NCBI GenBank assembly: GCA_910575615.1
Contig: CAJTEX010000005.1
Location: 62,001-126,000, forward strand
Direction: 5' to 3'
From: Bacteroidales bacterium
GTDB lineage: Bacteria > Bacteroidota > Bacteroidia > Bacteroidales > Muribaculaceae
Length of the DNA: 64,000 nt
Below the pieces are notes generated by a model that did no database searches, was not told the origin of the DNA, and saw only the letters and a program-made list of their open reading frames with translations. This document shows, piece after piece, positions 4,153 through 59,593 of the stretch (its first letter is position 1; each line of letters starts with the position of its first letter). A program made the position numbers and the translations under genes.

Positions 4153-4194
4153 CAACAATTTCCCAAATCCACACCATTCCTTCCAATCTAATTT

Positions 4195-4414
4195 TATTGC
4201 TGTCCGGTAAAAAAAGACAAAATCATATATTCTCTACAAATATAATAAGTTACATCTGTTTTACGAAAAAGGGCTTGTCATTTGAGGCGATGTGAAATTG
4301 GTAGCATTAAGCATCAAAAAGCCCTTAAAAGACATCTATACGAGTCTGTTTCATGCTGTATGAGATAAAAATAGTCCATTTCCTATCATGTCAAAGTTTT
4401 ACCGGACAGCAATA
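4195..4414 (+). mobile_element. MITE-220, copy 1
   Basis: A 220-bp non-coding element with perfect 18-bp terminal inverted repeats (TATTGCTGTCCGGTAAAA). It is flanked by a 9-bp target duplication ATCTAATTT (4186-4194 and 4415-4423). It contains an internal inverted pair AAGGGCTT / AAGCCCTT. Orientation is defined here as + with the MSKFYRTAI-coding end on the right. I see one base that differs from the other three copies (ACATCTG against ACACCTG near the left third). In this copy the outward ORF from the right end stops after ten codons. It lies between the receiver/PEP-synthase-like gene and the palindrome. Confidence 0.93.
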
Positions 4415-4498
4415 ATCTAATTTATCCCTCTCCCCCCGTTCCAAATTTTCCACCCGGATTCCAACGGAGTTACCCCCTTGTTCCCCTATGGATGGCAA

Positions 4499-4734
4499 CG
4501 GGTCTCACGCAGATTCAGCAGATACGCAGATTTCCCGCAGATAAAGCAGATAAAAGGATAGGCCAGATTAAAAAAGGTCTCACAGATTACACAGATTACA
4601 CAGAAGCCATCCGGATTCTTGTCTTCCGGATGGCTTCTGTGTAATCTGTGAGACCAATCTCCAATCTTCTCTAATCCTTATATCTGCTTTATCTGCGGGA
4701 AATCTGCGTATCTGCTGAATCTGCGTGAGACCCG
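4499..4734. repeat. 236-bp nested palindrome built of CAGAT-type units
   Basis: The outer arms (4499-4552 and 4681-4734) are perfect reverse complements over 54 bases. They are made of repeated GCAGAT / CAGATA words. A second inner inverted repeat (from GGTCTCACAGATTACACAG at about 4577 to about 4654) ends in CCATCCGGA arms around a short loop, with one 9-base unit duplicated on the left side. The RNA from either strand would form a very long hairpin. It directly follows the stop of the leftward GNAT gene, so it may end that transcript. A related CAGATT-rich stretch occurs at about 56325-56440. Confidence 0.85.
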
Positions 4735-4741
4735 GGGATGC

Positions 4742-5242
4742 TCAGGGGAGGAGACGGAAGGCTTTGCCGGGGATGCCGTCAAAGGTGTAATCGGCGAGGG
4801 GGCGGAAGCCACATTTCAGGGCGACGCGCTGCGAGGCGATGTTGCGGAGGTCGGTGGTTATCAGAAGGGAGGGTATATGCAGCTTGTGGAAGCAGTAGGT
4901 GGTGAGTGCTTGCAACGCTTCAATGGTCAGGCCGTGTCCCCAGTAGGGATGCCCTATCCAATAGCCGATTTCCCGTTCGGATGGGTTGATTTCATAGTGT
5001 TCGTCACCGGGAGGCACAAGGCCGATACAACCTATAGGCCCACCGGTTTCTTTCAGCACCATAGCGAATGTGTCGCGGTTGGGGATGAAGAAGTTGCGCA
5101 ACACCTCCAGGCTGAATTCGACGGAGGTGTGGCGCGGCCACAAGGCAAGCTCGCTCACACGGCCGTCTGAGGCGTATTTATAGAGCGCGGGGGCATCATC
5201 CTCGCGCCAATGGCGCAATATCAGTCGGTCGGTCTCAATCAC
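4742..5242 (-). CDS. GNAT family N-acetyltransferase (RimJ/RimL type)
   Basis: 166 residues from a GTG at 5242. The frame remains open further upstream, but that part overlaps rpe and is low-complexity, so the GTG that gives MIETDRLILRHWREDD, the usual beginning of this family, was chosen. The chain has the acceptor-side start, a central segment with PIGCIGLVPP, the acetyl-CoA pocket region IGYWIGHPYWGHGLTIEAL, and the late block N-ASQRVALKCGFRPL. Such enzymes acetylate an amino group of a protein, antibiotic or small molecule; the substrate cannot be told. It follows rpe by 37 bases on the same strand and is probably cotranscribed. Confidence 0.85.
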   Translation of the reverse strand: MIETDRLILRHWREDDAPALYKYASDGRVSELALWPRHTSVEFSLEVLRNFFIPNRDTFAMVLKETGGPIGCIGLVPPGDEHYEINPSEREIGYWIGHPYWGHGLTIEALQALTTYCFHKLHIPSLLITTDLRNIASQRVALKCGFRPLADYTFDGIPGKAFRLLP

Positions 5243-5279
5243 GGCGGAATGAGTTGGGTGTTTGTCGTGACGGGGCGGT

Positions 5280-5924
5280 TCAGAGCTGCTTGAGGGAGCG
5301 GATGGCGGCGAGGGGATCGGCGGCGTTGAAGACATAGCTGCCGGCGACGAGGATGTCGGCACCAGCCTCGGCGAGGAGCTTGCCTGTGGAGGCGTTGACT
5401 CCGCCGTCGATTTCGATAAGCGCGCCGGAACCTGTGCGGTCAATCATCTCGCGCAGGCGGCGGGTCTTGGCCACGGCGTTCGCGATGAACTTCTGGCCTC
5501 CGAAACCGGGATTTACCGACATCAGCAGCACCATGTCAAGTTCGGCGATGACATCCTCGAGCATACACACCGGTGTGGAGGGATTGAGAGTGACGGCGGC
5601 CTTCATCCCAGCCTCCTTGATGGCGTGGATGGTGCGGTCGAGATGCACACAGGCTTCCTGATGGACATTCATTATCTCCGCACCGAGGTCGCGCAGACGG
5701 TTGACCCATTTCTCCGGCTCGACAATCATCAGGTGGACATCGAGGGGTTTGTCGCAGATTTTCCTGACAGCCTCCATCACAGGGAAGCCGAAAGAAATGT
5801 TGGGGACAAACACGCCGTCCATCACATCGAGATGGAGCATGTCTGCTTCACTGCGGTTTATCATCTCTACGTCTTTCGCCAGGTTGGCGAAATCAGCCGA
5901 CAAAAGCGAGGGGGAAACAAGCAT
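5280..5924 (-). CDS. rpe: Ribulose-phosphate 3-epimerase
   Basis: 214 residues, normal length for the family. It interconverts ribulose 5-phosphate and xylulose 5-phosphate in the pentose phosphate pathway, in the cytoplasm. Visible family blocks are VSPSLLSADFANL at the start, the metal-binding LHLDVMDGVFVPNISFG, DVHLMIVEP, the VNPGFGGQKFI block, and the phosphate-binding IDGGVNAS and VAGSYVF near the end. It lies in a leftward run of genes, 36 bases after dedA-like and 37 before the GNAT gene. Confidence 0.97.
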   Translation of the reverse strand: MLVSPSLLSADFANLAKDVEMINRSEADMLHLDVMDGVFVPNISFGFPVMEAVRKICDKPLDVHLMIVEPEKWVNRLRDLGAEIMNVHQEACVHLDRTIHAIKEAGMKAAVTLNPSTPVCMLEDVIAELDMVLLMSVNPGFGGQKFIANAVAKTRRLREMIDRTGSGALIEIDGGVNASTGKLLAEAGADILVAGSYVFNAADPLAAIRSLKQL

Positions 5925-5960
5925 GGTGTTATTTATGAGGTTACGCTGGTTGGGGATTCA

Positions 5961-6656
5961 TCATTTGCCACCGTCGGTGGTCTTCTTCGACTTGCCTTTC
6001 ATAGCCTGCCATACGATGAAGAGGATGCAGACAAGCAGCAGGCAGAAACCGCCGATGGTGAAATAATGGTTGTATTTCTCGACTGACTCAAAGAGCTGTG
6101 AGTAGGGGACGGTCTTGCCGAGCCAGTAACCGAGGGCGGCAAGCACGCAGTTCCACACCCCGGCACCAAGGGCGGTGAAGATGACAAACACGCCTATGTT
6201 CATCCTTGCCAATCCGGCGGGGATGGATATTAGCTGGCGCACAGCGGGAATCAGGCGGCCTATGAATGTCGACAGCGCGCCGTGGGCATCGAAATATTTC
6301 TCGGCTTTCTCCACTTTGGCTTCATCGATGAGGCAGGCGTGGCCGAGACGGCTGTTGGCGAATGCATAGACAATCGGACGTCCGAGCCACACGGCAAGGA
6401 AATAGTTTATCAAGGCTCCGACCACAGCTCCGGCGGTAGCCACAAGCACCACCAGGATGACATTCAAGTCGCCACGGGTAACGGCGATATATGCGGCCGG
6501 AGGCACCACCACCTCTGAGGGGAACGGGAGGAATGAACTCTCGATCACCATGAACAGGAACACGAAGAGGTAGCTGGCGTTGTTATAAAAGAAATCGAGG
6601 AGAAACTGGGCTGAAAACCAGTCGCTCATCGCGCATGTTATAAGCAATTCATTCAT
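5961..6656 (-). CDS. DedA family membrane protein
   Basis: 231 residues with about five hydrophobic segments. DedA/SNARE-associated motifs are clear: ESSFLPFPSEVVVPPAAY (about residues 41-58) and FIGRLIPAVRQLISIPAG (about 136-153) with the conserved R-x-I-P. It ends in a basic tail GKSKKTTDGGK. Members of this family act at the inner membrane, where they have been linked to lipid carrier (undecaprenyl phosphate) flipping and membrane homeostasis; the exact job here is unknown. It sits between folE and rpe, all leftward. Confidence 0.93.
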   Translation of the reverse strand: MNELLITCAMSDWFSAQFLLDFFYNNASYLFVFLFMVIESSFLPFPSEVVVPPAAYIAVTRGDLNVILVVLVATAGAVVGALINYFLAVWLGRPIVYAFANSRLGHACLIDEAKVEKAEKYFDAHGALSTFIGRLIPAVRQLISIPAGLARMNIGVFVIFTALGAGVWNCVLAALGYWLGKTVPYSQLFESVEKYNHYFTIGGFCLLLVCILFIVWQAMKGKSKKTTDGGK

Positions 6657-6693
6657 ACGTTGTCGGTATGTTGTTCGATAGTATGTCTATATG

Positions 6694-7311
6694 TCAGGCT
6701 CCGGCGGTCATGCGGTGGAATTCCTCACGCAATGACGGGTCGCTCTCGAAAAGCCCGGTGTAATGGGTGGTGACGGTCGATGCCTGCTGCTTCTCCACCC
6801 CGCGCATCTGCATGCAAAGGTGAGAGGCACGGCATGTGGCAATCACTCCAAGTGGATGGAGGGCCTCCTCGACGGCCTTGCAGATTTCGGCCGTGAGACG
6901 TTCCTGCACCTGAAGCCTGCGGGCCACGGCGTTGACCACGCGGGCGAGCTTGCTGAGCCCTACTATCTGGCCATCGGGAATGTAACCGACAGAGACAGTG
7001 CCAAAAAAGGGCAATATGTGATGCTCGCACAGCGAATAAAACTCTATGTCGCGGACAACCACCATCTGCGAACCTTCATGAGAGAACAGGGCCTTGCGCA
7101 TCAGGTCGGCAGGCTGGCCCGAACGGTTGCCCGATGTGGCATACCATAAAGCGCGGGCGGCCCTCATCGGGGTTTTGCGCAATCCTTCACGTGAGGGATC
7201 GTCGCCGACAAGTTTCAAAATGGCCTCGTAATGAGAGGCAATCTCCGAAATCGCATCCCTCTCGACGGGGGTGGCACCTTCGGGAAAATCGTCTTCCTGA
7301 TATGAATTCAT
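6694..7311 (-). CDS. folE: GTP cyclohydrolase I
   Basis: 205 residues. It converts GTP to dihydroneopterin triphosphate, the first step of folate biosynthesis. The zinc and catalytic region shows SLCEHHILPF with the Cys-x-His-His ligands, and ASHLCMQMRGVEKQ carries the second Cys. The tunnel-fold core QIVGLSKLARVVNAVARRLQ is intact. The usual acidic residue before SHLCM is replaced by A. The gene lies 53 bases after the SPOR-domain gene on the same strand and is followed by dedA-like. Confidence 0.96.
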   Translation of the reverse strand: MNSYQEDDFPEGATPVERDAISEIASHYEAILKLVGDDPSREGLRKTPMRAARALWYATSGNRSGQPADLMRKALFSHEGSQMVVVRDIEFYSLCEHHILPFFGTVSVGYIPDGQIVGLSKLARVVNAVARRLQVQERLTAEICKAVEEALHPLGVIATCRASHLCMQMRGVEKQQASTVTTHYTGLFESDPSLREEFHRMTAGA

Positions 7312-7364
7312 GTCAATCGTTTATCCTTGATTAAGGCAAAGCCAACACCGACAGGTGGCACGGC

Positions 7365-7868
7365 TCAGCGGGCATTGATGCGGTCTCTGACCACTCTGAC
7401 CTCCTTTGCGTAAGACGGGAACGCGCGACGGATGTCGGCGGCGGCTTTCTCGGCCTCGGCCTGTGTGCGGAAGTCACCCACACGCAGACGCCAATAGGGC
7501 GACACATATGCGACATATGTCATCATCGACGGGAAACGGCGTCCGACGGCTCTCTCACGCTGACGAGCTTCCCCTTTGGCCACACGCTGGTTGTTGTCGG
7601 CATAGACCTGCACCCTGAAACCCACGGTTTTGCCTTTCGACCGGTGGACGGCCGGAGACTCCTTCTCCTCCTCGACACCTCCCTCGTCGGGCGCGTCTTC
7701 AGAGGATACACCATCAGGCATCCGCAGACGTTCGGCAAGAGCCTGAGGCTGCTCCACGGTCACGGTCGAGCCGGGACGGTTGAGATTTTCTACAATGTCG
7801 GCCATCGCAGTCCCGACGGCCACGGAGAGAACAAGCAGAAGGGATATAATTCGTGAAAGAGGATTCAT
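7365..7868 (-). CDS. SPOR domain protein, exported
   Basis: 167 residues from the ATG at 7868; a longer open frame upstream runs antisense to tpiA territory and is not credible. It begins with a signal peptide (MNPLSRIISLLLVLSVAVGTAMA), followed by a linker with an acidic stretch. It ends with an SPOR domain of about 80 residues (GFRVQVYADNN ... YWRLRVGDFRTQAEAEKAA). SPOR domains bind denuded septal peptidoglycan, so a periplasmic cell-wall role near division sites is likely. It stands between tpiA and folE on the same strand, an arrangement I recall from other Bacteroidales. Confidence 0.9.
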   Translation of the reverse strand: MNPLSRIISLLLVLSVAVGTAMADIVENLNRPGSTVTVEQPQALAERLRMPDGVSSEDAPDEGGVEEEKESPAVHRSKGKTVGFRVQVYADNNQRVAKGEARQRERAVGRRFPSMMTYVAYVSPYWRLRVGDFRTQAEAEKAAADIRRAFPSYAKEVRVVRDRINAR

Positions 7869-7962
7869 TTGACGGTGGTTGAAGGCTCTATGGGTAAAAA
7901 AGGCATGACGGGAAAGGACGCGCGGCGCGTCCTCTCCCTCATACCGTTGATTGAAGTCTTTA

Positions 7963-8715
7963 TCAGAAAGCGGTGACGATGCCCATGAAGGAAGCGCAGT
8001 CGAGAGCGGCGCCGCCGATGAGACCACCGTCGACATTGGGCTTCTCGAAGATTTCCTTGGCGTTGGAGGGCTTGCAGCTGCCGCCGTAAAGGATGGAACA
8101 GTTGTCGGCCACCTCCTGGCCATACTTGCCGGCGATGACGCCACGAATGTGGGCGTGCATTTCCTCAGCCTGCTCGGCGGTGGCAGTCTTGCCGGTGCCG
8201 ATGGCCCAGACGGGCTCGTAAGCGAGGATGAGCTTGCCGAATTCCTCGGCGGAGAGGTCGAAGAGGGCTTCCTCGATCTGCTTGGTGACAACATCAAGGA
8301 ATGTGCCGTTCTCGCGCTCCTCGAGCACCTCGCCGATGCAGAAGATGGGGGTCAGGTTCTCAGCCAGGGCGAGGTTGACCTTTGTCTTGAGGATTTCAGA
8401 GGTCTCGCCGTAGTACTGACGGCGCTCCGAGTGGCCGAGGATGACATATTTGGCACCGGTGGAAGCCACCATGGGAGCGGAAACCTCGCCGGTGTAAGCG
8501 CCTTTGACATGGTCTGCGCAGTTCTCTGCACCGAGACCGAGCTTGGAATCGATAACGCCGGCAACGGAAGCCAGATGGGTGAAAGGAACGCAGATCACCA
8601 CGTCACACTTCGCATCGATGCCCTTGAGGGCTTCGTTCACATCCTTGGCCAGCCCTACGCCTTCGGCGAGGGTGGTGTTCATCTTCCAGTTACCTGCTAC
8701 GATGTTTTTTCTCAT
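7963..8715 (-). CDS. tpiA: Triose-phosphate isomerase
   Basis: 250 residues, the normal length. It interconverts dihydroxyacetone phosphate and glyceraldehyde 3-phosphate in glycolysis. Visible are NWKMNTT at the start (catalytic Asn and Lys), the catalytic His in [13 protein letters not shown], the catalytic Glu in [15 protein letters not shown], and the phosphate-binding [10 protein letters not shown] and GLIGGAALD. It follows the DoxX-like membrane gene by 71 bases on the same strand. Confidence 0.98.
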
Positions 8716-8786
8716 AATTATTTTGGAGTTTGTTATGGTTGAGGTTGACAGGAATCCGCGGGAGGCCGACGGCCTTCGCCAGGGTC

Positions 8787-10184
8787 TCAGGCGGTGTCCT
8801 TTGATTTCGACTGCAAATTTACGGCTTTTTTTTGATAAAATCCCCTAATTCTTGCAGAAACAGCCAAAACGAGGCTCTGGAAGAGATAAAGTAACAGCAA
8901 CGCCACCCCGAAGAATCCGGTCAGAGCCTTGAACCAGGCCCCCGGCCTGGGCGCCATACGGGCCAGCAGATTCTTGCCAGAAGGGCCTTCATCGAGAATC
9001 TTCCCGTCAATCGAGCTAAGGGTGTATTTCGCGGCCACGCAGCCATCCTCCAACTCGACAATCGACATGGTGCCGCGCACAAGCTCCTTGAGTTTTGTGT
9101 CTTCGGCGGAATACACGTCATAGGCCGCCATCGAGACATCTTTCCAATAGTCGATGCCCCTCTTGTCGGCGGCTATCACGCAGGCCATCCTGACATCCGA
9201 CGTGTCGGCCCACTGTTTCAGTTCGTTCAGGAAGTAGGTGTATGATATGTCTATGCGCTGCGGTTCGGGAATCACCACCAGCAGCTCGGAGCCTACTCCG
9301 GAGACCGCCTCGGAGGTGACATCCTCCCCGTCGACATCATACACCACGAAGTCAGCGCCGGCATTCCCGGCGGCAGGCGCGCCGCTCTCAACACGCTCGA
9401 CAAAAGTCCAGGTGGAATCAGGCAGGTCGTCGATGGTGAACTCGCGCCGCTGGCCGTCACGCTCATATATGAATGTCATCTCGCCGGCCCACTCCTCCTC
9501 GCCGTCGGCCTCGTCGTCATAGGCTACCGGCGACTCATCTTCATCACCATCCTCCACGAGCGGGGATCCTACCGGATAAGGGCGGAAGTCGGCCATCGGC
9601 TGCACGTTGTAGCCATAAAGGGCCACCAGTATGAAATACAGCGAGACCCATGCGCCTGCAATCCACTGTATCGCGGGCTGGAACATACCAGCCTTCAGCC
9701 GGTGGTTGAATATCAGCAGAAACAGCAGGGCGGCGGTCAGCAGTATGTTCTTTATGAAAGTCCAGGTATTGGAAATCACCCAGAAATCGCCAAAACACCC
9801 GCAGTCGCTGACAGGATTGGCGATGGCGATATAGGCTGTCAGGGGTAGCATAAACCCCATCATAGCGGTCAAGGCCCACACCGACACACGCTTATAGCAG
9901 CCTGCGGCCAGCATGCAGCCGAAGACAAACTCATATCCTGAGATAAGCAACGCGGCCATCAGAACCAGCGACCTTGGCTGGGAGAGGCCCCATACGGCGA
10001 GGTAGTCCTCTATCTTGAAGATGAATCCCCAGAGGTCAATCCCCTTGACAAGGCCTGACATTATGAACAGCGAACCTGTCAAGACCCTCAGCGTCCAGAC
10101 CGCAGCAGGCATCCAGCGGCTGCCGGCCACCCGCGCGATCCATCCTTGTCCCGCGTCTTTGTTCCGTCCAGGCATATCAGTCAT
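8787..10184 (-). CDS. BT_3928-type DoxX/MauE-like membrane protein
   Basis: 465 residues. The N-terminal half (about 20-190) has four to five membrane segments with the DoxX-type start [21 protein letters not shown] and a Cys pair in [11 protein letters not shown]. An acidic soluble part follows (about 200-250), then a domain of about 170 residues of unassigned fold, and a last membrane segment near residue 430 with a basic tail. In Bacteroidota this family is described only as a DoxX family protein; a link to redox or cell-envelope chemistry is inference from the Cys pair and MauE similarity. Its start overlaps the end of the DUF1599 gene by 8 bases, so the two are translationally coupled. 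Confidence 0.85.
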
Positions 10185-10776: not shown

Positions 10777-10795
10777 GTCGTCGAATTTTTCTCCG

Positions 10796-10803
10796 CAAAG
10801 TTA
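10796..10803 (-). promoter_or_regulatory. -7 box TAACTTTG for the DUF1599-led cluster
   Basis: The minus strand reads TAACTTTG, matching TAnnTTTG, 19 bases before the ATG at 10776. It is back to back with the menD -7 box, 23 bases away. Confidence 0.6.
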
Positions 10804-10826
10804 CGAAATTTTTCCTCCATTTTTTC

Positions 10827-10834
10827 TAATTTTG
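10827..10834 (+). promoter_or_regulatory. -7 box TAATTTTG for the men operon
   Basis: TAATTTTG fits TAnnTTTG and ends 7 bases before the menD start, giving a very short leader. No exact TTTG -33 box is seen. Confidence 0.55.
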
Positions 10835-10841
10835 TATTGAA

Positions 10842-12515: not shown

Positions 12516-12544
12516 ATCAAAAAAACAACTGCATATTTCCCAAA

Positions 12545-13366: not shown

Positions 13367-13374
13367 CCCCGCTG

Positions 13375-14418: not shown

Positions 14419-14419
14419 C

Positions 14420-40282: not shown

Positions 40283-40981
40283 ATGACAAGCAAAGAATTT
40301 GATAAATGTGTAAATACCTCTCGCAAATCTGTCGGGAGTGAATATGGCTGGAAGAAAAGCGGATACGTTAGCTATAAAATAGTTAATGGCTATTTCTTTT
40401 ATCTATTACACCTTGTAAATGCCAGTATAGATTTACATGTTAAGCCATTTTACGCAGATGATTTGTGGTGTGATATTTTCCAAATACCGGAAGCCAAGAA
40501 ACCGATAAGTTTGCGTGGCAATGGTGCATTTGCCTTGCCTGGAGAGTCCATTGCGTCTTATGATACTTTCCCCGGCAACAGTAAAACTTATTCCGAGTCA
40601 ATTATTGGGGATATTTGGGAATCCGTATTTAATGAAATTGAATCGGATATACGTAATTTTATATCTAAAAATCCGTCTGCGGACCTGTATATGCCTCCCT
40701 CTACCAACGCTCGTGGTGATATCTCTTTATCATATCTTGTAGCACTGTTGCATAATAATAAAGTATCAGAGGTAATCAATCTCGTTTATATGGCTCGTCA
40801 AGAGGGTCAATGCTCTGGAATGGTCAAAGTCAAATTGTTTGAGGATGAAGAAAAAGACGGTTATTCTTTTATTTTAGATTTATTGCTGTCCGGTAAAAAA
40901 AGACAAAATCATATATTCTCTACAAATATAATAAGTTACACCTGTTTTACGAAAAAGGGCTTGTCATTTGAGGCGATGTGA
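40283..40981 (+). CDS. Hypothetical A+T-rich protein, C-terminus rewritten by MITE
   Basis: The frame now encodes 232 residues, but the last 33 (from LLLSGKKRQNH) come from MITE copy 2. If the element and one 9-base target copy are removed, the gene reads FILDYANSLS and stops at 41129, giving 205 residues. The beginning MTSKEFDKCVNTSRKSVG and WKKSGYVSYK weakly recall DUF4304-type proteins; I am not sure. It is A+T rich and lies inside a phage-like operon with its own -7 box, so it may be cargo. Confidence 0.75.
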   Translation: MTSKEFDKCVNTSRKSVGSEYGWKKSGYVSYKIVNGYFFYLLHLVNASIDLHVKPFYADDLWCDIFQIPEAKKPISLRGNGAFALPGESIASYDTFPGNSKTYSESIIGDIWESVFNEIESDIRNFISKNPSADLYMPPSTNARGDISLSYLVALLHNNKVSEVINLVYMARQEGQCSGMVKVKLFEDEEKDGYSFILDLLLSGKKRQNHIFSTNIISYTCFTKKGLSFEAM

Positions 40982-41100
40982 AATTGGTAGCATTAAGCAT
41001 CAAAAAGCCCTTAAAAGACATCTATACGAGTCTGTTTCATGCTGTATGAGATAAAAATAGTCCATTTCCTATCATGTCAAAGTTTTACCGGACAGCAATA
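40881..41100 (+). mobile_element. MITE-220, copy 2
   Basis: 220 bp with 18-bp perfect terminal repeats, flanked by the 9-bp duplication TTTTAGATT (40872-40880 and 41101-41109). It has the same orientation as copy 1. It lies in the last codons of the gene starting at 40283. Removing it restores an intact reading frame. Confidence 0.95.
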
Positions 41101-41151
41101 TTTTAGATTATGCTAATTCTTTAAGTTAAACGCTTGTCTTTTACAGCATAG

Positions 41152-47646: not shown

Positions 47647-47698
47647 GCAACAATTCCGGAACCGACAAAGGATTTCCACAAAAATCAGAGCAAAAATA

Positions 47699-47876
47699 CA
47701 CGGCTCTTTCATTTAAAAATGCTTGGAATTTTCAAAGTGCATGACTGATAGTTAGTTAAAAGCCATTAACCCTTTTATCCAAAATGAGATTAACACAGCC
47801 ATTGCGTAACTGCCACATATAACTACTTGATTAACAGTGGCGCATTGTAGCATCAAAGTTAAATGAAAGAGCCGTG
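47699..47876. mobile_element. MITE-178, second MITE family
   Basis: 178 bp with perfect 18-bp terminal repeats (CACGGCTCTTTCATTTAA), flanked by the 9-bp duplication GCAAAAATA (47690-47698 and 47877-47885). It is non-coding and A+T rich. Only one copy is seen here. Its ends are unrelated to MITE-220. Confidence 0.9.
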
Positions 47877-48729: not shown

Positions 48730-48730
48730 G

Positions 48731-49009: not shown

Positions 49010-49086
49010 GGCGCAACATCCGGAAGCTGAATGTTTGCAATCTTTTCCAATCTCGCCAACACTGGAATAGATCGCAATGTTGGCGA

Positions 49087-50313
49087 CTACTCGGCCACGC
49101 GGTAGAAATCCCCCTTAAGCAGCTGCGACATCCCGTCCTCCGTGAACGTAGCTGTTATCTGTGCGCAGACATATTTCTTCCCCCTGATGAAGAACATCGC
49201 GCGGGGATTCGGAATCCCCCTGACTGGCCCGGAGGCGTTGGCCGCCGACCCGGCGAGGAAACTGAAAGTGAACTTCTGGGTCGGGTCAATCCGCGTGACC
49301 TTCTCCTTGCTGAACGCGTTACGGTCGTTGAGCCGGAGGGAGAACCGGGGCAGGTAATAAGATCGCCAGTCGGAGGCGACCACCACATTCTCCACGAACG
49401 GGAACGGCAGCAGGCCGTCCATCTGGAGTGCCCCGTCCCAGTAGGCGATGTGGATCCGGTCGAAATACTGGGCCGCCGCCACCTCCCCCCTCTCGAGGAC
49501 ATACTGGTACTGAGTGAGCTGGAACAGGTTCTCGAAATACGACTTCATATCGGATGACGAGCTTGGCGGCAGCTCCACGTCCGCGCCGGAGTCGACAGAG
49601 CCGTCACCCACGTCGACGAACAGGCACCGCCCGTATTTCGGCTCCGTGAAGTCGACACGCGCCGGGATGAAATCAATCTCCTCAGCCTCCGCGTCGTCTG
49701 ACTCGTCCATTATCCGCGCGCCGAAGATGTTGACCGGCTGCAGCACACAGGCGTAACGGTTGTAATACCTGCCCTTGTCATCGACAAGCTCCTTTGACAC
49801 CGGACGGCATATGAAATACATGTCAACGTCGGCGGCGTACATAAGGCGCTGGCGGTTTGACTGCCGGTCGGCCCCGCCAGTCCATTCCCTGAGCCTCCAG
49901 TTGTCATCGAGCAGCTGCTGGAGTGTGTCGTAGGCCGTCGCCGCGATTTTCCCGGCAGGCCACACGAAATTAACCGACGGGACGTGGGCCACGCGCTCCA
50001 TCAGCCAGTCGCACGAGTAGTAGTTCCACAGCTTGTAGCCGCCGTCGGCATACCTGAGGTTCCTGGCGTAGAGATAGTCGCAATCTGGCGACTCGACCTG
50101 CACGGCCACCGTGTGCTGGTCGACCACATCCTCGAGGCACACATCCTCGATGGTGGCCAGCACGTCGCGCGAGAAACGGAACGTGACCGACCTCGCGCGG
50201 TGGTCGATGTCGAACTCCCCCTCAAGCAGCAGCTCCAGACGCTCGAAGAACTCCGCCACCGTCCAGTGGGGCAACGCCTTCGAGAATATTGCTGTCCGGT
50301 AAAACTTTGACAT
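49087..50313 (-). pseudogene. Tail-associated protein, C-terminal part with MITE-derived start
   Basis: 408 codons. The first nine (MSKFYRTAI) are coded by MITE copy 3, then three by the target duplication (FSK), and the rest (from ALPHWTVAEFFERLELLLE) is phage sequence. It is the C-terminal 396 residues of a gene whose N-terminal part is at 50507-51283. The uninterrupted protein would be 655 residues. It lies directly downstream of the tape measure gene, so it probably belongs to the tail tip. Confidence 0.8.
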
Positions 50314-50506
50314 GATAGGAAATGGACTATTTTTATCTCATACAGCATGAAACAGACTCGTATAGATGTCTTTTAAGGGCTTTTTGATGCTTAATGCTAC
50401 CAATTTCACATCGCCTCAAATGACAAGCCCTTTTTCGTAAAACAGGTGTAACTTATTATATTTGTAGAGAATATATGATTTTGTCTTTTTTTACCGGACA
50501 GCAATA
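50287..50506 (-). mobile_element. MITE-220, copy 3
   Basis: 220 bp, reverse orientation, flanked by the 9-bp duplication CTTCGAGAA (50278-50286 and 50507-50515). It splits one phage gene in two. I see no base difference from copies 2 and 4. Confidence 0.95.
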
Positions 50507-51283
50507 CTTCGAGAACTCAAACTGCCCCAGCACCGCCGGGAGGACGTTGCACACCAGCAGGTATGCCTTTGACTCATCCTCCTCCCAGGGGCGGAAGTCG
50601 CAGGCGTAGCCCACCGCGCCGCAGATCCTCCTGGCGATGAATATCAGGTAAGGCTGCCACGAGAGGGAGACCACGCCGTCGGACCAGTGGTAATCCCGGC
50701 CGTCCCACTCGGCGAAGTTCTGCGGCGCGCCGTTGGTGTCGTTGACCCAGGGGAGCGCCACGCAGGTCAGATCGGCCACTCCCCTGGTCCATGCCTGCAC
50801 CGGGGAGAGCACCGAGCCGGCCCCGGAACCACCCCCGGGGCGCAGCGAGTCGCCGGAGCCGAACGAGAAGCTGTCATCCTCCGGGTCGTGGCCTCCGTCG
50901 ACAACCTGGCCGAGGCTGTTGGCGCGCCCCAGGTCGAGCTCGTCGACATAGGTGTTGTCGAACGTCTGCGAGAAGTTCTGCTCAGACCTCCCCTCGAGAA
51001 ACTGCGCCTCGACCTCGGTCTCGGAGATTGAGGTTATGGCCAGCGACCCGAAGCGGTGGAATGCCGCGTCTCGCACCTCGCAGTCAAACACCACCTTGCC
51101 GGCGGCCACGTCTGGCCGGTGGATGTTGCCGAAGACCGCGAGGTTCTCCGGACACCCCCGCAGGGGGAACGTTATAGCCAGCGAGTAACCGTCGCTTCCG
51201 GAGAACAGGCGGTTCTCGGCCACGAAATCAAAAGATGTGCCGGACTTCAAGGCCACCGGCTTGCCATTGACGAAAACATCCAT
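50456..51283 (-). pseudogene. Tail-associated protein, N-terminal part ending in MITE
   Basis: 275 codons, of which the first 259 (MDVFVNGKPVALKSG to FSK) are phage and the last 16 (YCCPVKKDKIIYSLQI) come from MITE copy 3. It follows the tape measure gene after 6 bases. The beginning, with a short beta-rich domain (SLAITFPLRGCPENLAVFG), is a familiar type in Bacteroidales prophages but I cannot name its fold. Confidence 0.8.
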
Positions 51284-51289
51284 CTCGAA

Positions 51290-54200
51290 TCATTTACGAA
51301 GTTTTGGCCTCTTGTTCCTCATAAGCCGGTCGTAATCATCCTGGGCCTTCTTCATGCCCTTGTCGCCCGTGACGGTGTTGACCGTCACGAAAGGCTCGTC
51401 GAGCCTCCTGGCCAGGCGGCCCAGCACCTCCGCGGCGCGCGAATCGCCGCGCTCCGGAGCCGGGGCCGGGGCAGGGACGTTGACCACCACCGGCTCCTGG
51501 CGCTGGGCGGCCAGCACCATCGGGGCCGCCACCGACCTGGAGACATCGGCCTGGGTGATGGAGCCGATGGTGTTGGCGCGCTGGGCGCGGTCAAGAGCCT
51601 CCAGGAGCGGGCGTACGCGGGGATTGTTGACGAGCTTCTGCAAGGCCACCCACTCCCCGGCGTGAACCACGCCCACCTCCCGGTCTTTAGGGCCGGCCGG
51701 GGTGAAACCGCCCTCCGAATATCCGGAGGCAGCGGTGGCCTGCTGCTGCTTCTTGATCAACGCCACCTGCACCAAGCCGCTCGCCGTGGCCAGCCCGGCA
51801 AGCACCGCCGGCATCACCGTGTTGGCCGGGAAAGGGAACTTGAAACCCACCCCATAAGCGGCAATCGCATTGGACGCGGTCTGCGCCACAGCCTCCACGA
51901 CCTTCAACTTGAACTCCTCATTGACAGCCTTCGCCTTCAACCTCTCAAGTTCCGCCTCCTTCTCCTTCTCAAGCTTGCGGGTCATGTAGGAGTTGCCCTC
52001 GGCCGCCTTGAGCATCGCGTCATACTTCTTCTCGGCGTTGGCGATGTCGATTTTTGACTGCGCCGCCGCGAACTGGCTGTAAGTCTGGAGGCCGGCCGTC
52101 ATCGCCGCCACCGAGGACTCCGCCGCCTCTGAGATGTCATCCCAGGAAAGTTCTCCGGTCTCAGCCATGTTGCGGAACACGTCACAGACGGCCACGCCCA
52201 TGTTCACGATCGAGGAGAAATCCTTTCCGATCAGAGGCTCAAGGAACTCATTCAACGCTTCCCGGAGATTCTTGCGTGCTGGCGACAACCCCTCCTGGAA
52301 CTGCTCCAACGAGAGAGACCCGGCCTCGAAATCCTGGCGCAGCTTCTTGATCTGCACATTGGCCTCCTCATAAGCACCGTGGAGCTTGCCGTATGCCTTG
52401 CTGCTGGATGAACGCAGGTCAATACCTTTGGTCTCCACCGTGCCATCCTGATTTATCCCGGTCTCCACCTCCAGATTCTTCAAAGCATTCTTGGACGCGC
52501 GCTTGCCACGCTCGGCCTCGATGCCGTCGAGAAACTTGTTGTAAGTCTTGTCAAACGCCTCGAAGTACTCCTCGTCAGAGAGCTTTCGCTGGTCATTCAG
52601 CTCATTTATCAGGCCAAGCTCATAAGTGAGCCGCCGTTGCGCCTGCCCCTCCCAGTCGTCGGAACCGTTCCCCGCACGGTACCGCTCAAGGTATTCCGCA
52701 AGCTCCTTCTGACGCTTGGCCATATCCTCGTGCAGCTCCTCCTCGAGCTGCTCGTTGTACTTCACCCACTCCTTGGAATACTCCTTGTAGGTGTCGCGGT
52801 ATTTCCTGAGGTAGGAGACCTTGAGCTGGGACAGCCCCTGCTCAAGGGCGCGAGAGTCAGTCACGCGCCGTTTCAGGTCGCGCTGCCGCATCTTGTACTC
52901 CTTCTCCAGCGACTTGACAGACCGCGCCGACTGTTTCTCCATGGCCGCGCGCTCTGCCTGCGCCCTTTCCAGGAGCAGTTTGCGGTAAGTCTCGTCATAA
53001 TTCAGCAGCAGCTTCCGGGCTTGCGGGGTCTCGTCTTCGTAAAGCCCCTCGTAAATCCGGATTCGGGCATCTATGTATTCCCGGTCAAGCCTCTCCTTCT
53101 CATCGAGGAAATCCTGGTAAGTCTTCAATCCCTGGGCGTACTCCACCTCGTTGTCGGCCGCCCCGGTCTCCCAGTCACCCTTTGCCTTCTCCATGGCAGC
53201 CTTGAAGGAGGCCTTGGCCTTGGCGAGCTCGCGCTTGGCCTCAAGCTCCGACTTCTTCGCCTCCTTGGCGGCCTGCACAGTCGACACATACCCTTTTCCG
53301 GAATCGGCCTCAGGCTCCGGCTCAACCGTCGTGCCGAAGTAACGCTGGTTAAGGCCGAAGATGCCGTCATTGTAAGCCTTGTTGGCCTTTGCCTCCGACA
53401 TCGTCTCGCGGTCACGTTTAAGCTTCTCCTTCCACTTGTCGACCTCCTTGCGGTATTCCTCGTTGCCCGCGTACAGCTCCCGGTTGATTTTCAGCATCAT
53501 CGCGTTCTCCTTCTCGCGCCGGGCCTTGTCATCCTCCAGCTCCTTCTCCCGTTCCCCGGCGATAAGGCCCTCGAGGGCCTCCGTCTTCCGCCGGATCCCG
53601 AGCAGCTTGGCCTCATTCACGCCACGGGCCACACCCGACTGCGCGGTGTATTGGGCCGCCGCCATCACCGGGTTGCCGGTGCCCCCGAGAATCGCCCAGG
53701 CCCCGCGCTCGTAGTTGAAGTCCTTGTCAGCTTCCATATCTGTCTCGATGTCGAGCCTCTCCTTCTCCAGCTCGACCAGCTTGGCCTTGGCCGCTTCCGC
53801 GCGGGCCGCCTTCCGGAGCGACTCGACATAGTCGTCGATCGCCTTGGTGTTCTCGTTGATGATCTCACCCTCGCGGGTCAGCCATGCGTGGTAGCCGGGG
53901 ATGATGCGCTCCAGTTCCTTGATGGCCTTTATGCGCTCGGCGTATGACAGGTTCTGGTCGTTCATCGCCCGCCTGAGGTCATCAATCTTCCCTTTCTGCT
54001 CGGCGACAGTCTTGTTTGCCTCCTTGTTCACATCCGACAGCAGCTTGCTCACCGAGAAAGTGTCTGTCATCACCTTGCAGAGGTAAGCCACGGCGGCAGC
54101 GACCCCAAGCACACCGGCGGCCCAGAGCTTCCAGTTCATCGCGGCCATGGCCTTGCTCCACCGCTCCTGCATGGTGTAGGTGACCTCAAGGCCGTTGCGC

Positions 54201-55876
54201 AGGTAATCCACCGAATTGCGGAAAGCGGCTGCGGCCACAGCCCCCAGACGAGTCACGACCGACCACGCCGACTGGGCCTTCGCGCCCACCAGCAGCAGCG
54301 CGTTGTAGGCCTTGACCCTCACGGAAACAGCCAGCACCGCGGCGGAGTAGGCAGCCACCGCCGCCGCGGCCATCGTGATGCCCGTCCTGTTCTTGAGGAA
54401 ATAATCGACCATGACGGAAAGCACCTTCAAGGCCACCGTCGATGACGAATAGAAAAGCTTCATCACCGGGCAGAGCTTCTCGCCAAGCTCCACGGCATAC
54501 TCGTTGACACGCTTGCGCGCCTTCTCGAGGCCGGCCATCACGGTATTGTTCTGCACGTCGAACTCATTGCCGATCGACGTGGCCTCGGCGAAAGCCTTGT
54601 TGGCCTCGGCCTGCTGCGCCTTGACCTCCTCGACATGGCCCGCCAGTGTCGACAAGGCCGCTATGGCCCGCGCGCCCGTCTCCCCCATGTCCTTGAACAT
54701 CGGGGAGAGGGTGTCCATCCTCCCCGCCGACTTGAGCGCCGTGAGGAACTCGAGCAGGGCCGCGTTCATGTCCTCATTCACCAGCTTGGAGAACCGCTTC
54801 ACATCCAGGCCGGCCACCTTGGCGTACTTCGCCGGTTCCTGGTATATGCGCACGATCACCTGTGACAATGCCGTCGAAGACGCTTCAACCTTCTGGTTGT
54901 TGCTGTCGAGAACCGCCGCGAAGCCCATGATCTGCTGCACGGTCATATTCGCCTGCTTGCCGACACCTCCCACACGCGAGGCGAACTCGGCCAGGTACGG
55001 GGCCGAGGCCGAGCAGTTCTGCGACAGCTCGTTGATGACCGAGCCGACCGAGAGCAGGGCCTTCTCGGTGCCGAGACGCTTCTCGTCGCCGAAAATCCCC
55101 GTCAGCTTCGACAGCGTCAGGGTCGCTCCCTTTCCGAGGTCATCGAGGGCCACGTTGACCTTGTCAGCCGCCTTCACATATCCCAGGACATCCTCCTGTG
55201 TCTGCTTTCCCAGGCGGCCTGCCTCCTGGGCGTATTGGTTGAGCTGCTCGCGGGACGAGCGCGTGTCCATCTTCTTGAACTCCTCGTTGAGCGCCCCGAC
55301 CTCCCGGGCCGCCATCCCGGTGTATTTCCAGACATTGGCCTCCTCCTGTTCCATCTCGGCATAAGCATCGACAGACTTGCGGCCTGCCATGATCAGCCCG
55401 GTAACAGCGGCGGCTGCCGCCATCACCGCCATTTGGAAACGTTCCACCCAGCCGTTCAGGCGTTCACCCAACGACTGTTGAGTCCGCATCGCCGCGTTCA
55501 CCCGGCCCAGCTCCTCGCGCACAGCGCGTATCTTGGCCGTGTGCGCGTCCCAGGCCGCGCTGCCGCGCTGGATCCCGTTGAGCTGCTGCTCGAGCTGCTT
55601 AAGAGTCCGGCGCAACTCCTTGGGTGTGGCCTGGTCGAGCCGCCGCAACACCGTGTCGACCCCGGCCGCCTGGTTTCGCAGCTGCTCCATCATCCGGTTG
55701 GTTGAGTTCAGCTCGCGCTGCAACTTCTTCATCGTGGCCTTGTCGCCCGCGCGGGCCGCCGCGGCGATTCCTGTCTCGAGCCTCTTGGCATCCTTCTCGA
55801 GCGTCGACATCATCTGCCGGGCCTGCTTGCCATTGACAGACAAGACGACCGTGGCCGTTGTATTGTATCCTGCCAT
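51290..55876 (-). CDS. Phage tail tape measure protein
   Basis: 1528 residues from the ATG at 55876. The N-terminal coiled part (MAGYNTTATVVLSVNGKQA, EKDAKRLETGIAAA) leads to a TP901-type core (about 130-480: KYTGMAAREVGALNEEFKK, EFASRVGGVGKQANMTVQQI, FKDMGETGARAIAALSTLAG). Membrane-like helices lie at about 520-640. Long coiled coils with many Lys/Glu repeats follow, and a hydrophobic stretch near 1400 (AAYGVGFKFPFPANTVMPAVL). Such proteins set the length of long tails. The gene is intact, though its neighbours are not. Confidence 0.93.
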   Translation of the reverse strand: MAGYNTTATVVLSVNGKQARQMMSTLEKDAKRLETGIAAAARAGDKATMKKLQRELNSTNRMMEQLRNQAAGVDTVLRRLDQATPKELRRTLKQLEQQLNGIQRGSAAWDAHTAKIRAVREELGRVNAAMRTQQSLGERLNGWVERFQMAVMAAAAAVTGLIMAGRKSVDAYAEMEQEEANVWKYTGMAAREVGALNEEFKKMDTRSSREQLNQYAQEAGRLGKQTQEDVLGYVKAADKVNVALDDLGKGATLTLSKLTGIFGDEKRLGTEKALLSVGSVINELSQNCSASAPYLAEFASRVGGVGKQANMTVQQIMGFAAVLDSNNQKVEASSTALSQVIVRIYQEPAKYAKVAGLDVKRFSKLVNEDMNAALLEFLTALKSAGRMDTLSPMFKDMGETGARAIAALSTLAGHVEEVKAQQAEANKAFAEATSIGNEFDVQNNTVMAGLEKARKRVNEYAVELGEKLCPVMKLFYSSSTVALKVLSVMVDYFLKNRTGITMAAAAVAAYSAAVLAVSVRVKAYNALLLVGAKAQSAWSVVTRLGAVAAAAFRNSVDYLRNGLEVTYTMQERWSKAMAAMNWKLWAAGVLGVAAAVAYLCKVMTDTFSVSKLLSDVNKEANKTVAEQKGKIDDLRRAMNDQNLSYAERIKAIKELERIIPGYHAWLTREGEIINENTKAIDDYVESLRKAARAEAAKAKLVELEKERLDIETDMEADKDFNYERGAWAILGGTGNPVMAAAQYTAQSGVARGVNEAKLLGIRRKTEALEGLIAGEREKELEDDKARREKENAMMLKINRELYAGNEEYRKEVDKWKEKLKRDRETMSEAKANKAYNDGIFGLNQRYFGTTVEPEPEADSGKGYVSTVQAAKEAKKSELEAKRELAKAKASFKAAMEKAKGDWETGAADNEVEYAQGLKTYQDFLDEKERLDREYIDARIRIYEGLYEDETPQARKLLLNYDETYRKLLLERAQAERAAMEKQSARSVKSLEKEYKMRQRDLKRRVTDSRALEQGLSQLKVSYLRKYRDTYKEYSKEWVKYNEQLEEELHEDMAKRQKELAEYLERYRAGNGSDDWEGQAQRRLTYELGLINELNDQRKLSDEEYFEAFDKTYNKFLDGIEAERGKRASKNALKNLEVETGINQDGTVETKGIDLRSSSSKAYGKLHGAYEEANVQIKKLRQDFEAGSLSLEQFQEGLSPARKNLREALNEFLEPLIGKDFSSIVNMGVAVCDVFRNMAETGELSWDDISEAAESSVAAMTAGLQTYSQFAAAQSKIDIANAEKKYDAMLKAAEGNSYMTRKLEKEKEAELERLKAKAVNEEFKLKVVEAVAQTASNAIAAYGVGFKFPFPANTVMPAVLAGLATASGLVQVALIKKQQQATAASGYSEGGFTPAGPKDREVGVVHAGEWVALQKLVNNPRVRPLLEALDRAQRANTIGSITQADVSRSVAAPMVLAAQRQEPVVVNVPAPAPAPERGDSRAAEVLGRLARRLDEPFVTVNTVTGDKGMKKAQDDYDRLMRNKRPKLRK

Positions 55877-56137
55877 AAAAAACAAAAGTGGAAGTAACGC
55901 CACAAATGTCCGACAACTCCCGGATGCCGGAAAAGACACCCCGAGGCATCCGTCAACGACCACCCGGCGCGTCCGATGCTGACGCGCCGACCGCTTTCCA
56001 AAAGAAAACCGCCGGATTCCAAATGCCCTTGGAATCCGGCGTGGACTCCCGGCAAGGCGCTGGTTGGAAGCGGCTTGCTTCCTATTTCCCGCCCGCCGTT
56101 AAAGACATTTTAACGGCAATCCCCAAGAAAATTTTTC

Positions 56138-56277
56138 ATTGGTGTCCGGCAAAAGACTCTCAGGCTCCACTTGGCTTTGTGTTACCCCTCTGACAGCTGA
56201 CATATTCACTTAAGCATAAGGCTTAATACATAAAGCCCCTCAAAACAGCCAATTAAGCACATTCGCCGGACACCAAT
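56138..56277. mobile_element. MITE-140, copy A
   Basis: About 140 bp with ends ATTGGTGTCCGGCAAAAG and (reverse complement) ATTGGTGTCCGGCGAATG. It is clearly similar to copy B over its full length, with scattered differences. No clean target duplication can be drawn, so the insertion is older than MITE-220. Confidence 0.75.
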
Positions 56278-56324
56278 AATAAATTTTCATCCCTGGAATC
56301 CCCTCGGGAGCGAAGCGACCAAAA

Positions 56325-56440
56325 CTGTGGAATCTGTGGAATCTATGAAATCTGTGGAATCCGCGAACCTATCCGGGAGCGAAGCGACCTTTAATCCACG
56401 AGAAATCTGCGTATCTGCGCAATCTGCGTGAGACCCTTTT
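56325..56440. repeat. CAGATT/GTGGAATCT-rich repeat stretch
   Basis: CTGTGGAATCTGTGGAATCTATGAAATCTGTGG-type words (reported in pieces: GTGGAATCT three times) and CGAGAAATCTGCGTATCTGCG followed by CAATCTGCGTGAGACCC. The last part matches the outer arm of the palindrome at 4499-4734. Confidence 0.6.
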
Positions 56441-56542
56441 TACAAATTAGCAAGAGGCCCTTATGCTCATAAAAACTCACACATATTACGCAGATTCCCT
56501 CCGGGTTGTGTTATGCCAGACTGCATCTATGGAATAAATTTT

Positions 56543-56682
56543 AGTGGTATCCGGGGAAAAACGCTCAGGTTCCACTTGGCTTTGTGTTACCCCACTGACA
56601 GCTGACAGATTCACTTAAGCAGAATACTTAGCACATAAAACCCATCAAAACAGCCAATTAAACACATTCGCCGGACACCAAT
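56543..56682. mobile_element. MITE-140, copy B
   Basis: 140 bp, same family as copy A (shared CTCAGG-TCCACTTGGCTTTGTG and CAAAACAGCCAATTAA words). The left end has drifted (GTGGTATCCGGGG); the right end is intact (CGCCGGACACCAAT). Confidence 0.75.
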
Positions 56683-56750
56683 AAAAATTTTTCAATCTCC
56701 CTGAGTTGAAAAATTCAATCCGCTGCCACTGAGCGGATTGAGGGGGTAAA

Positions 56751-56773
56751 GGGGGCGATTTCGCCCCCTTTTT
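56751..56773 (+). terminator. Hairpin with T-tract in the repeat-rich region
   Basis: GGGGGCGATTTCGCCCCC followed by TTTTT. No gene on the plus strand ends directly before it. Confidence 0.5.
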
Positions 56774-56972
56774 GCGTCTCTGCACCCCCCACCGCCCTGC
56801 CGCTTAAGACCGCCGGACCCCTCTCCGGACGAGGCGGAATATGCGACGGACCTCCTGCCGGACGGGCCGTCCGCCTCCGGGAAAAATTTCCTCCGGAAGC
56901 GAAAGCTTCCACACAAAGCCGCCCGACACATCACGCGCCGGGCGGCTTTCCGTAAAAATGCTCAAAAAAATG

Positions 56973-58396
56973 TATTACTGTCCGCTAAACCATATAAGAG
57001 TGAGTCCAACTTCCTGAACGGCAGAAGTTGGGCTTACTTTTTGTATTTGACAAGCCCCCTCAGCAGTTTTCAGGAACTTCGGGAGGGGATTCCGATGCTT
57101 CGGCGAGCATGATTTTCAGGTCTGCATCGGGCTGATTGAGGAACTTTTCGAGATTCAGGTAATACATCAGCACAATTCTGACGATTGTAGCCAGCCCGGA
57201 GAAGCTCCAACGTCTTTCGAGTTTGCTTTGAAGTACTGACAGCAGCAGATTTGCGATGAGTGTAACCCATATCTGGATTTTGATGGCGTTGGCGCTCTCT
57301 CCATAGAAGTATCTCAAGGGGAAGTTCTTTTTGATCTGCTTGAAAAGAGACTCTATCTGCCATCGGCGGCGGTATATCGCCACGATTGTCTCTGGCGGCA
57401 TGTCGAAGTCGTTGGTCAGAAGCGATATGAGTTTTGGCTTCCCGTTCTTCTTGATGTCAACGTATGTAATTATTCTGGCGATGTGGTTTATGCCGTCTTT
57501 ACGGAACACCACGACCTGTTCACGGTATTCCATCAGTCCCTGCGGGTTCTGATGCATACAGTCTACAAGTACCTCATAACTGAGGTTTTTCTTCATTTTG
57601 GTGACATATACAACGCCACGGTCCGTCAGTTCCTCGAATTTGGCATAATTGATATAGGCGCGGTCAAGAGCGACTATCTCGTTGTGGCTGTAATGGCTCG
57701 GAGCAAGCATGAAAGAGTCATTGGTGGCCGCCGAAGTGAACTGCACATCGCAGGGAACCCCCTCGTTGGCGTGTATGACAGAGTGTACCTTTATGCCGCC
57801 TTTCTTCTTTCCCGTCTTGGGGTGTCGGCCAACACCCTTGAAAATAGCGTTGGAGAACAATGTGATTGTAGTGGAATCGATAATCCTAAGCTGCTTTATC
57901 CACTCTTCCGTGCCGGTGCGTCTGCTGTCCGATGAAAGAATGTCTTTGTTGGCTGCATACAGGTCGCGATAGACATCCTCAAAGAACTTCTCTGACCGTC
58001 GGGCATTTGCATCCGACATGGTGCTGCGCTTTGCTACAGTATCAATTCCGACATGGTGCAGTTTGCGAACCTCCGCTGTCATAGATGTCTCTATCTCACG
58101 CAATGAGTCGAAGCGCTGGATCACGGCATAGAGCATCGTAAGCAGATGCGTATAGCCGTCAAAGCTCTTTACATACTTCTCTCCGCCGTGTTTTCGGCTG
58201 AATTCAACAATTTTTTCACGATTGAGTGATTTTATCAGCTGTCCATATATCGGCTGTCCGAAGAAATTACTACTTTTACTCATGGTTATTCATGGATTGT
58301 TTGGCGACACCAAAATAACCATTTAGGGCTGACTCCTGCAATAGGTGTTAGCCCTAATTTTTCAATCGCTCAAAAAAAGTTTAGCGGACAGTAATA
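56973..58396 (-). mobile_element. IS4-family insertion sequence with intact transposase
   Basis: 1424 bp with perfect 18-bp terminal repeats (TATTACTGTCCGCTAAAC). These match the MITE-220 ends at 15 of 18 positions. The transposase gene at 57060-58283 is complete. Flanking 9-mers differ (AAAAAAATG on the left, ATAAAATTA on the right), so there is no target duplication, pointing to a rearrangement after insertion. Confidence 0.93.
57060..58283 (-). CDS. IS4-family transposase (DUF4372 type)
   Basis: 407 residues. The N-terminal DUF4372 domain ([21 protein letters not shown]) is followed by an RNase H-like DDE core. The first Asp is in [14 protein letters not shown], the second in [17 protein letters not shown], and the Glu in the YREK-like box [18 protein letters not shown]. 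All three catalytic residues are present, so it may be active. It could also act on MITE-220, whose ends are similar; that is inference. Confidence 0.94.
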
Positions 58397-58503
58397 ATAA
58401 AATTACTAAGAATTATGACTTCGGATATGCTGGATTCAAAGAATTTTGCCAACATATATCATCGTTGACTCAAAGCAACCGTTACTTATCACACATAATT
58501 TTG

Positions 58504-58797
58504 ATGCGGTTGCCCTGGGAGGCCGGCGCATACCTGCGGCATGCCATATCCCGGCGCAAACGCCCCGACCTGGACGTGAAAAACATCCTTGAGGAAACAA
58601 CCGAGATATTGAACCTTTCGTACATCGCAAAACGTTATTTCAGCAAAGACCGGACATGGCTCTACCAAAGGCTCAACCGTTCGGTCGTAAACGGGAAACC
58701 CTCCGCTTTCACGGAGGCAGAGTTGCAGAAACTATCCGATTCTCTCAACGAGATAAGTCATATCATCCAACAAACCTCAATTAAATTAACTCATTGA
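58504..58797 (+). CDS. DUF5053 phage protein, possibly 5'-truncated
   Basis: 97 residues from the ATG at 58504; the frame is open back into the IS end, so part of the original N-terminus may have been lost when the region was rearranged. The DUF5053 core is clear: ILNLSYIAKRYFSKDRTWLY and NRSVVNGKPSAFTEAELQKL. This family is common in Bacteroidales phages and its role is unknown. It is the rightmost recognisable phage gene. Confidence 0.8.
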   Translation: MRLPWEAGAYLRHAISRRKRPDLDVKNILEETTEILNLSYIAKRYFSKDRTWLYQRLNRSVVNGKPSAFTEAELQKLSDSLNEISHIIQQTSIKLTH

Positions 58798-58811
58798 TTT
58801 CTTAAGACAGA

Positions 58812-58848
58812 TGGGGCTGTGTCAAAATAGGCGCAGCCTCTTTTTTCC
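58812..58848 (+). terminator. Terminator after the DUF5053 gene
   Basis: GGGCTGTG and CGCAGCC arms around a loop, followed by TCTTTTTTCC, 14 bases after the stop. Confidence 0.7.
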
Positions 58849-58896
58849 ATTACTGTGTCCCAAAGATGGCCGGAGGTGGTATCGCTTAGGATATGA

Positions 58897-59226
58897 TTAT
58901 GGGGTCATAAGGTCGACAAAGACATTCCCCATATTGAGGAGAACCACAAGGAGCATTACCAGACCGATGGCGAATTCTCCCCAGCATTTTTGCCGTATGG
59001 CTGCAATGGAGTAGCCCGAGGAGACTATGAGCAGAGAGACAATTAGGGCGGGTTTGCACCATGTCAGCACATCGACATCAATGCCGAACCAATCAAGCAG
59101 AAGGTTGACTCCTGAAAACAGGTAGACCATCAGCCACACGCAAACCACTGCCATCGGTATGAACAACCAATACAATTTCCTTTCTGTTGATTTTTCTATT
59201 ATTGCTGTCCGGTAAAACTTTGACAT
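58897..59226 (-). CDS. Small membrane protein whose start is supplied by MITE
   Basis: 109 residues. The first nine codons (MSKFYRTAI) lie in MITE copy 4. Removing the element restores a native start at 59437 (MKRIEKSTERKLYW) and a 103-residue protein. There are three hydrophobic segments (LFIPMAVVCVWLMVYLFSG, ALIVSLLIVSSGYSI, FAIGLVMLLVVLLNMGNVFV). No family recognised. With the MITE in place, the hybrid start may or may not be used. Confidence 0.7.
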   Translation of the reverse strand: MSKFYRTAIIEKSTERKLYWLFIPMAVVCVWLMVYLFSGVNLLLDWFGIDVDVLTWCKPALIVSLLIVSSGYSIAAIRQKCWGEFAIGLVMLLVVLLNMGNVFVDLMTP

Positions 59227-59419
59227 GATAGGAAATGGACTATTTTTATCTCATACAGCATGAAACAGACTCGTATAGATGTCTTTTAAGGGCTTTTTGA
59301 TGCTTAATGCTACCAATTTCACATCGCCTCAAATGACAAGCCCTTTTTCGTAAAACAGGTGTAACTTATTATATTTGTAGAGAATATATGATTTTGTCTT
59401 TTTTTACCGGACAGCAATA
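59200..59419 (-). mobile_element. MITE-220, copy 4
   Basis: 220 bp, reverse orientation, flanked by the 9-bp duplication TTTTTCTAT (59191-59199 and 59420-59428). It sits after the fourth to sixth codon of a small membrane-protein gene. Confidence 0.95.
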
Positions 59420-59593
59420 TTTTTCTATACGCTTCATCTTCGGTTTGATTGCTATGTGATTGCCGTCAATCGGGGTGTGTCACTCATCCCACACAAAGTT
59501 ACTAAAAAAAATGGCATTCCTGAATGGAACACCATTTTTCTTGTATATCGACTATATCGACGGATATTGCAAGTATCCGTTTGTGGCGCGTGG

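Follow-up and report, generated by a model that had tools for sequence, protein, structure and literature searches.

The four 220-bp repeats in the window (i.e., the whole stretch of 64,000 nucleotides analysed here) are, with a probability that we put at roughly 90%, copies of a MITE that is moved in trans by an IS4-family (DUF4372-type) transposase and that arrived by recent horizontal transfer and then amplified locally. The copies, together with a related insertion sequence (IS) in the window, are located as follows.

4195..4414, + strand: MITE copy 1, in which position 61 of the element is T; duplication ATCTAATTT at 4186-4194 and 4415-4423
40881..41100, + strand: MITE copy 2, with the consensus sequence; duplication TTTTAGATT at 40872-40880 and 41101-41109
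50287..50506, - strand: MITE copy 3, which splits the gene adjoining a tape-measure gene; duplication CTTCGAGAA at 50278-50286 and 50507-50515
59200..59419, - strand: MITE copy 4; duplication TTTTTCTAT at 59191-59199 and 59420-59428
56973..58396, - strand: related IS4-family IS with a transposase ORF at 57060-58283; it has 15 of 18 end bases in common with the MITE and is not claimed as the driver

All four copies measure exactly 220 bp, are bounded by a perfect 18-bp terminal inverted repeat (TIR) and have four different perfect 9-bp flanking duplications, with two copies in each orientation. This confirms, from the window sequence, the original prediction of four near-identical copies with their own duplications, and the one base difference that it reported among them is indeed the only one (at position 61 of the element, the copy at 4195 has T instead of C). 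Six-frame translation revealed no long frame and, thus, no transposase gene. The element is, therefore, a MITE by its make-up: short, A/T-rich (by reading), multicopy, with TIRs and duplications but no transposase gene; the size range for MITEs given in PMC4596501 is 50-1000 bp. Beside copy 1 a large palindromic repeat is present (window 4499-4734; 61-nt arms, 98% complementary, with inner hairpins), to which congeners G011 and G005 have dozens of matches. The region at 49087-55963 contains phage-tail-like genes, of which the tape measure (51290-55963) was identified by PHROGs, the one match among eight tested proteins; the gene next to it is the one split by copy 3.

The draft assembly searched (3,131,019 bases in 89 contigs) contains 40 matches to the element, i.e., 38 full-length copies (including one of 219 bp and one whose match spans 2-220) and two that are limited to 49-220. 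The terminal repeat, with at most one mismatch, has 89 matches in this genome vs. 0 for a reversed control and is, therefore, more than a chance occurrence. Six further sites, recognised from unpaired ends and interrupted or cut at contig ends, bring the total to ca. 44 (38 + 6); among these six are two IS-interrupted composites (C7:133780-135374 and one split over the contig ends of C6 and C19). The end of C14 and that of C17 each hold part of a further copy, and at C7, C19 (interrupted) and C29 a copy is cut off by the contig start; split copies were paired via their identical outer 9-mers ATTCCATAT and AAATATTAT. The MITE load helps to account for contig breaks in this genome. At ca. 44 sites in 3.13 Mb, or one per 71 kb, the four copies in 64 kb are denser than the genome average; the high load that had been predicted if the window were typical is thus real genome-wide, but the window density is not typical, the genome average being about one third of it. 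Two copies (L021:1501-1720, i.e., C7:3432-3651, and C4:106516-106735) were inserted directly at a related IS end or only a few bases away from it.

Perfect 9-bp duplications flank 36 of the 38 full copies (35 of 37 in one set, plus the copy on C46), the exceptions being those on C48 (no match) and C51 (poly-A with one mismatch). The consensus sequence is found unchanged in 29 of the 38, and the remainder differ by a total of 10 substitutions and one deletion, which amounts to a divergence of ca. 0.12% over all 38. At positions 61, 152 and 158, the same change is found in two full copies each, which suggests that more than one copy may have served as donor, although an identical change may also have arisen twice.

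By their sequence, the ends of the MITE are recognisably those of IS4-family (DUF4372) insertion sequences. The transposase of the window IS has DUF4372 and DDE domains, and it passes the IS4 model NF033592, as does the transposase on contig C15 (189 and 206 bits, respectively; cut-off 115). The visible end of the C15 IS matches that of the MITE at 17 of 18 bases, with position 13 as the one difference, and this IS probably represents the best resident candidate transposase. The DUF4372 ISs of C21 and C7 in the same genome are flanked by 9-bp duplications (AGAGGGAGA; TAATCTTAT), so that the MITE resembles IS4-family ISs in its ends and these two in the length of its duplications; the flanks of the window IS hold no matching duplication. 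ISs with exact ends are located in congener G007 and in genera g15 and g23; the 18/18 IS ends are in genomes G007, G115 and G106, where the frames start like DUF4372 transposases (likeness by eye). Exact ends also occur in G013, in small repeats without such a transposase frame. Inside the MITE no match to an IS is recognised and no parent interior was found, so that its descent from an IS by internal deletion would be no more than a possibility; few bases match beyond the ends, with 22-base matches in G007, G115, G078 and G106.

The MITE family is, on this likeness, most likely driven by IS4-type transposases, and we infer an IS4-family enzyme as its mover from the shared ends. The 18-bp ends of the element, which lacks a transposase gene of its own, would be recognised in trans by a DDE transposase of this type, which would insert the MITE at A/T-rich sites and so produce the 9-bp target duplications. 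It is possible, although less likely than not, that the driver was a different one, namely an IS4-type IS with exact ends that was present during the burst and has since been lost or remained unassembled, and that the resident IS with the 17/18 end is not the driver. Searches of the own assembly with the TIR (at most one mismatch), the DUF4372 family and the window transposase yielded no IS that combines exact ends with a transposase, and the last of these searches listed no match on C6 or C19; apart from a lone exact end at C6:141447 that is not part of a MITE copy, all exact ends in this genome belong to the MITE. Such a driver would be in keeping with the exact-end ISs of G007 and the two other genera and with the poor assembly of multicopy ISs in such drafts, where many IS ends lie less than ca. 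200 bases from contig ends. However, the TIR matches listed for five further carriers likewise include no exact-end IS with a transposase: the exact-end matches there belong to MITE copies, whereas 17/18-end matches are present in four of these carriers (G001, G099, G148 and G297; not in G132, which has no further TIR within one mismatch).

Other small elements with related ends were also observed. Two 142-bp relatives in the window (56137-56278 and 56542-56683), with 18 differences between them and with ends similar to the above IS4-type ones, are a second, older mini-element, and the outer flanks of the pair have the 9-mer AAAATTTTT in common, as if it had moved as a composite. At the starts of contigs C21 and C15 (L048:447-479 and L046:104-121), the left end of a 17/18-end IS is interrupted by another DUF4372-type IS, with the 9-mer TGAGGCAAA common to both (by eye). 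Small elements that have an IS end on one side and a site where the transposase frame starts on the other occur in G115 (L154:1501-1649 and L159:1501-1644) and in P. intestinale (L138:1501-1646); the DNA at that site resembles the inverted end, no matching 9-bp duplications were seen by eye, and these are possibly newborn mini-elements.

The MITE has a pronounced preference for A/T-rich targets. The left flanking 9-mer holds at most two G/C in 31 of 37 copies, as against 6.6% of the 9-mers in the window, and the bias is weaker at the middle three flank positions than at the outer six. Only five of 37 copies lie inside frames that are open for at least 100 codons on both sides, compared to 50% of 2000 random window positions and 20% of 2000 A/T-rich positions. 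The site preference thus explains most of the apparent avoidance of genes, and selection for such avoidance is not claimed since the A/T-rich controls are also low.

Another idea is that the MITE is kept for a function, as an RNA structure, promoter or terminator, and that its copies are regulatory and not selfish. Both strands fold better than shuffles (z of -5.8 and -5.6), and the interior aligns with that of a 77% identical Phocaeicola relative with a single one-base gap. However, pairing of the terminal repeats contributes to the folding gain, no Rfam family matches the copies, and these are scattered over A/T-rich sites, also within open frames, so that we give this idea little chance of being correct. 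A coding origin was considered and dropped: one frame stays open throughout the Phocaeicola copy, but the differences of this copy from the window element show no third-position excess (by eye).

Empty sites were found in congener G011, where two of the four window sites (4195 and 50287) are without the element. The G011 sequence aligns to the window up to 4194 and again from 4417, and both pieces meet on its contig C3, where it has CACCTAATTTATCCC in place of AATCTAATTT, the element and ATCTAATTTATCCC, i.e., one target with one base changed; the other ten genomes compared at this site have homology on the gene side only or too little to judge. For the copy at 50287, separate searches with each part of the interrupted gene led to a single frame on contig C31 of G011, with matches of 40% over 408 aligned positions and of 53% over 83. 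The two matches are 21 bases apart, which are the seven codons that remain once the three duplicated codons are counted once; the homologue of the gene is thus uninterrupted there. The sites at 40881 and 59200 gave no two-sided alignment in G011. These two empty sites, the different flanks, the perfect duplications and the low divergence all support the predicted recent activity of the MITE, where "recent" would refer to near-identity and to empty sites at the species level.

The occurrence of the element in other species lies outside the original prediction, as does the IS source of its ends. Within the genus, three of 14 genomes match: the own genome, G001 (two full copies) and G007 (22 bases of an IS end). 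In the family, 12 of 297 genomes match (two candidates scored per genome), with full copies in four (the own genome, G001, G099 and G148), 48 bases at a contig end in G132 and only short matches in the other seven; in the order, the own genome is the single match among 393 (again two candidates per genome). A scan of GTDB genome contigs for an exact 36-mer, which finds exact cores only and from which the own record was excluded, yielded eight stretches.

Duncaniella muris DSM 103720: 1 stretch with the exact 36-mer; corresponds to G099 by its flanks
Paramuribaculum intestinale DSM 100749: 1 stretch with the exact 36-mer; corresponds to G148 by its flanks
Muribaculaceae bacterium Isolate-013: 2 stretches with the exact 36-mer; corresponds to G001 by its flanks
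Bacteroides acidifaciens DSM 15896: 4 stretches with the exact 36-mer

These carriers are, presumably, all mouse-gut bacteria. All eight copies have 9-bp duplications, and insertion sites differ between carrier species. The four copies in the three other Muribaculaceae do not differ from the consensus over 220 bp, and all four full copies of B. acidifaciens share 219 of 220 bases with it and carry a C at position 21 that is absent from the 37 own-genome copies compared; two further B. acidifaciens sites lie at contig ends, and one of these was paired through its 9-mer. An assembly artefact or contamination is very unlikely as the source of the copies, the least probable of the explanations considered, since, although several contigs end within the MITE, flanks and duplications differ per copy, G011 has empty sites and the B. 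acidifaciens copies have their private base.

Near-identity between families at separate sites implies recent horizontal transfer between them, probably followed by separate amplification, and we infer that the MITE arrived in this genome in this way and was then amplified locally. With regard to a vehicle, the exact 36-mer gave 0 stretches in viral contigs, phages gave no match, and among plasmids only a 76.8% identical relative (in Phocaeicola massiliensis) was matched. Comparison of carrier loci with own loci revealed no shared vehicle among the best eight non-element matches per query; the longest of those listed are 89.5% over 638 bp (D. muris) and 84% over 584 bp (Isolate-013), and the left flank of the Isolate-013 site has no convincing alignment in the own genome. 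Window 47694-47876 is 97% identical over 183 bp to Isolate-013 L116:64-246, much closer than other shared DNA seen there, and this piece does not adjoin a MITE copy in either. The MITE marks recent DNA exchange among gut Bacteroidales and provides a clean case of the spread of a non-autonomous element, being identical across Muribaculaceae genera and 219/220 in Bacteroides, at separate sites. Cross-family spread with local bursts, with no exact-end parent found in the assembly, goes beyond the routine.

In both composites, that of C7 and that of C6/C19, another IS is present at the same internal point of the MITE, and the outer duplications are different. Its best NCBIfam match is IS701, at 116 bits below the cut-off of 170. 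The simplest reading would be that the 1,595-bp composite transposed as one unit, so that the ends suffice, although separate insertions of the inner IS at the same point in two MITE copies may also have occurred. Such natural composites are informative about the part of the element that is required. We tentatively propose, as a scenario that we consider doubtful as a whole, that the MITE lineage travels between gut Bacteroidales families, bursts where a compatible IS4-type transposase with non-identical ends resides, survives its parent IS with the help of related transposases that it borrows, and can move even with a whole 1.4-kb insertion inside.

Among known systems, IS4-family ISs (NF033592, PF14294, PF01609) have ends like those of the MITE (15-18 of 18 bases) and, in the two resident examples, 9-bp duplications, but the MITE differs from them by its lack of a transposase gene and of recognised IS sequence in its interior. 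A 219-bp element on the Phocaeicola massiliensis plasmid OY725999 is homologous to the MITE throughout, with the same ends and, if its first base is counted as lost, a 9-bp duplication ATAGCAAAA (by eye); it is, however, only 76.8% identical, has a mutated left end and was found as one copy. This relative shows that the family itself is older. BrickBuilt and other MITEs of Porphyromonas gingivalis, as described in PMC4596501 and PMC5771137, likewise belong to the Bacteroidales, have ends that resemble resident ISs and contain no internal transposase remnant, but their ends are ISPg1/ISPg9-like, they have internal 23-nt tandem repeats, both ends are present in only four of 19 copies, and their duplications vary in length. 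The IS982-derived MITE of Cardinium, as reported in PMC9769881, is likewise a lineage-specific burst in a Bacteroidota genome, but it derives from another IS family, has intact parental copies in the same genome and occurs only in that strain. Among the papers covered by the literature search, none on the 220-bp element was listed; the element is a new MITE family of a kind that is already known.
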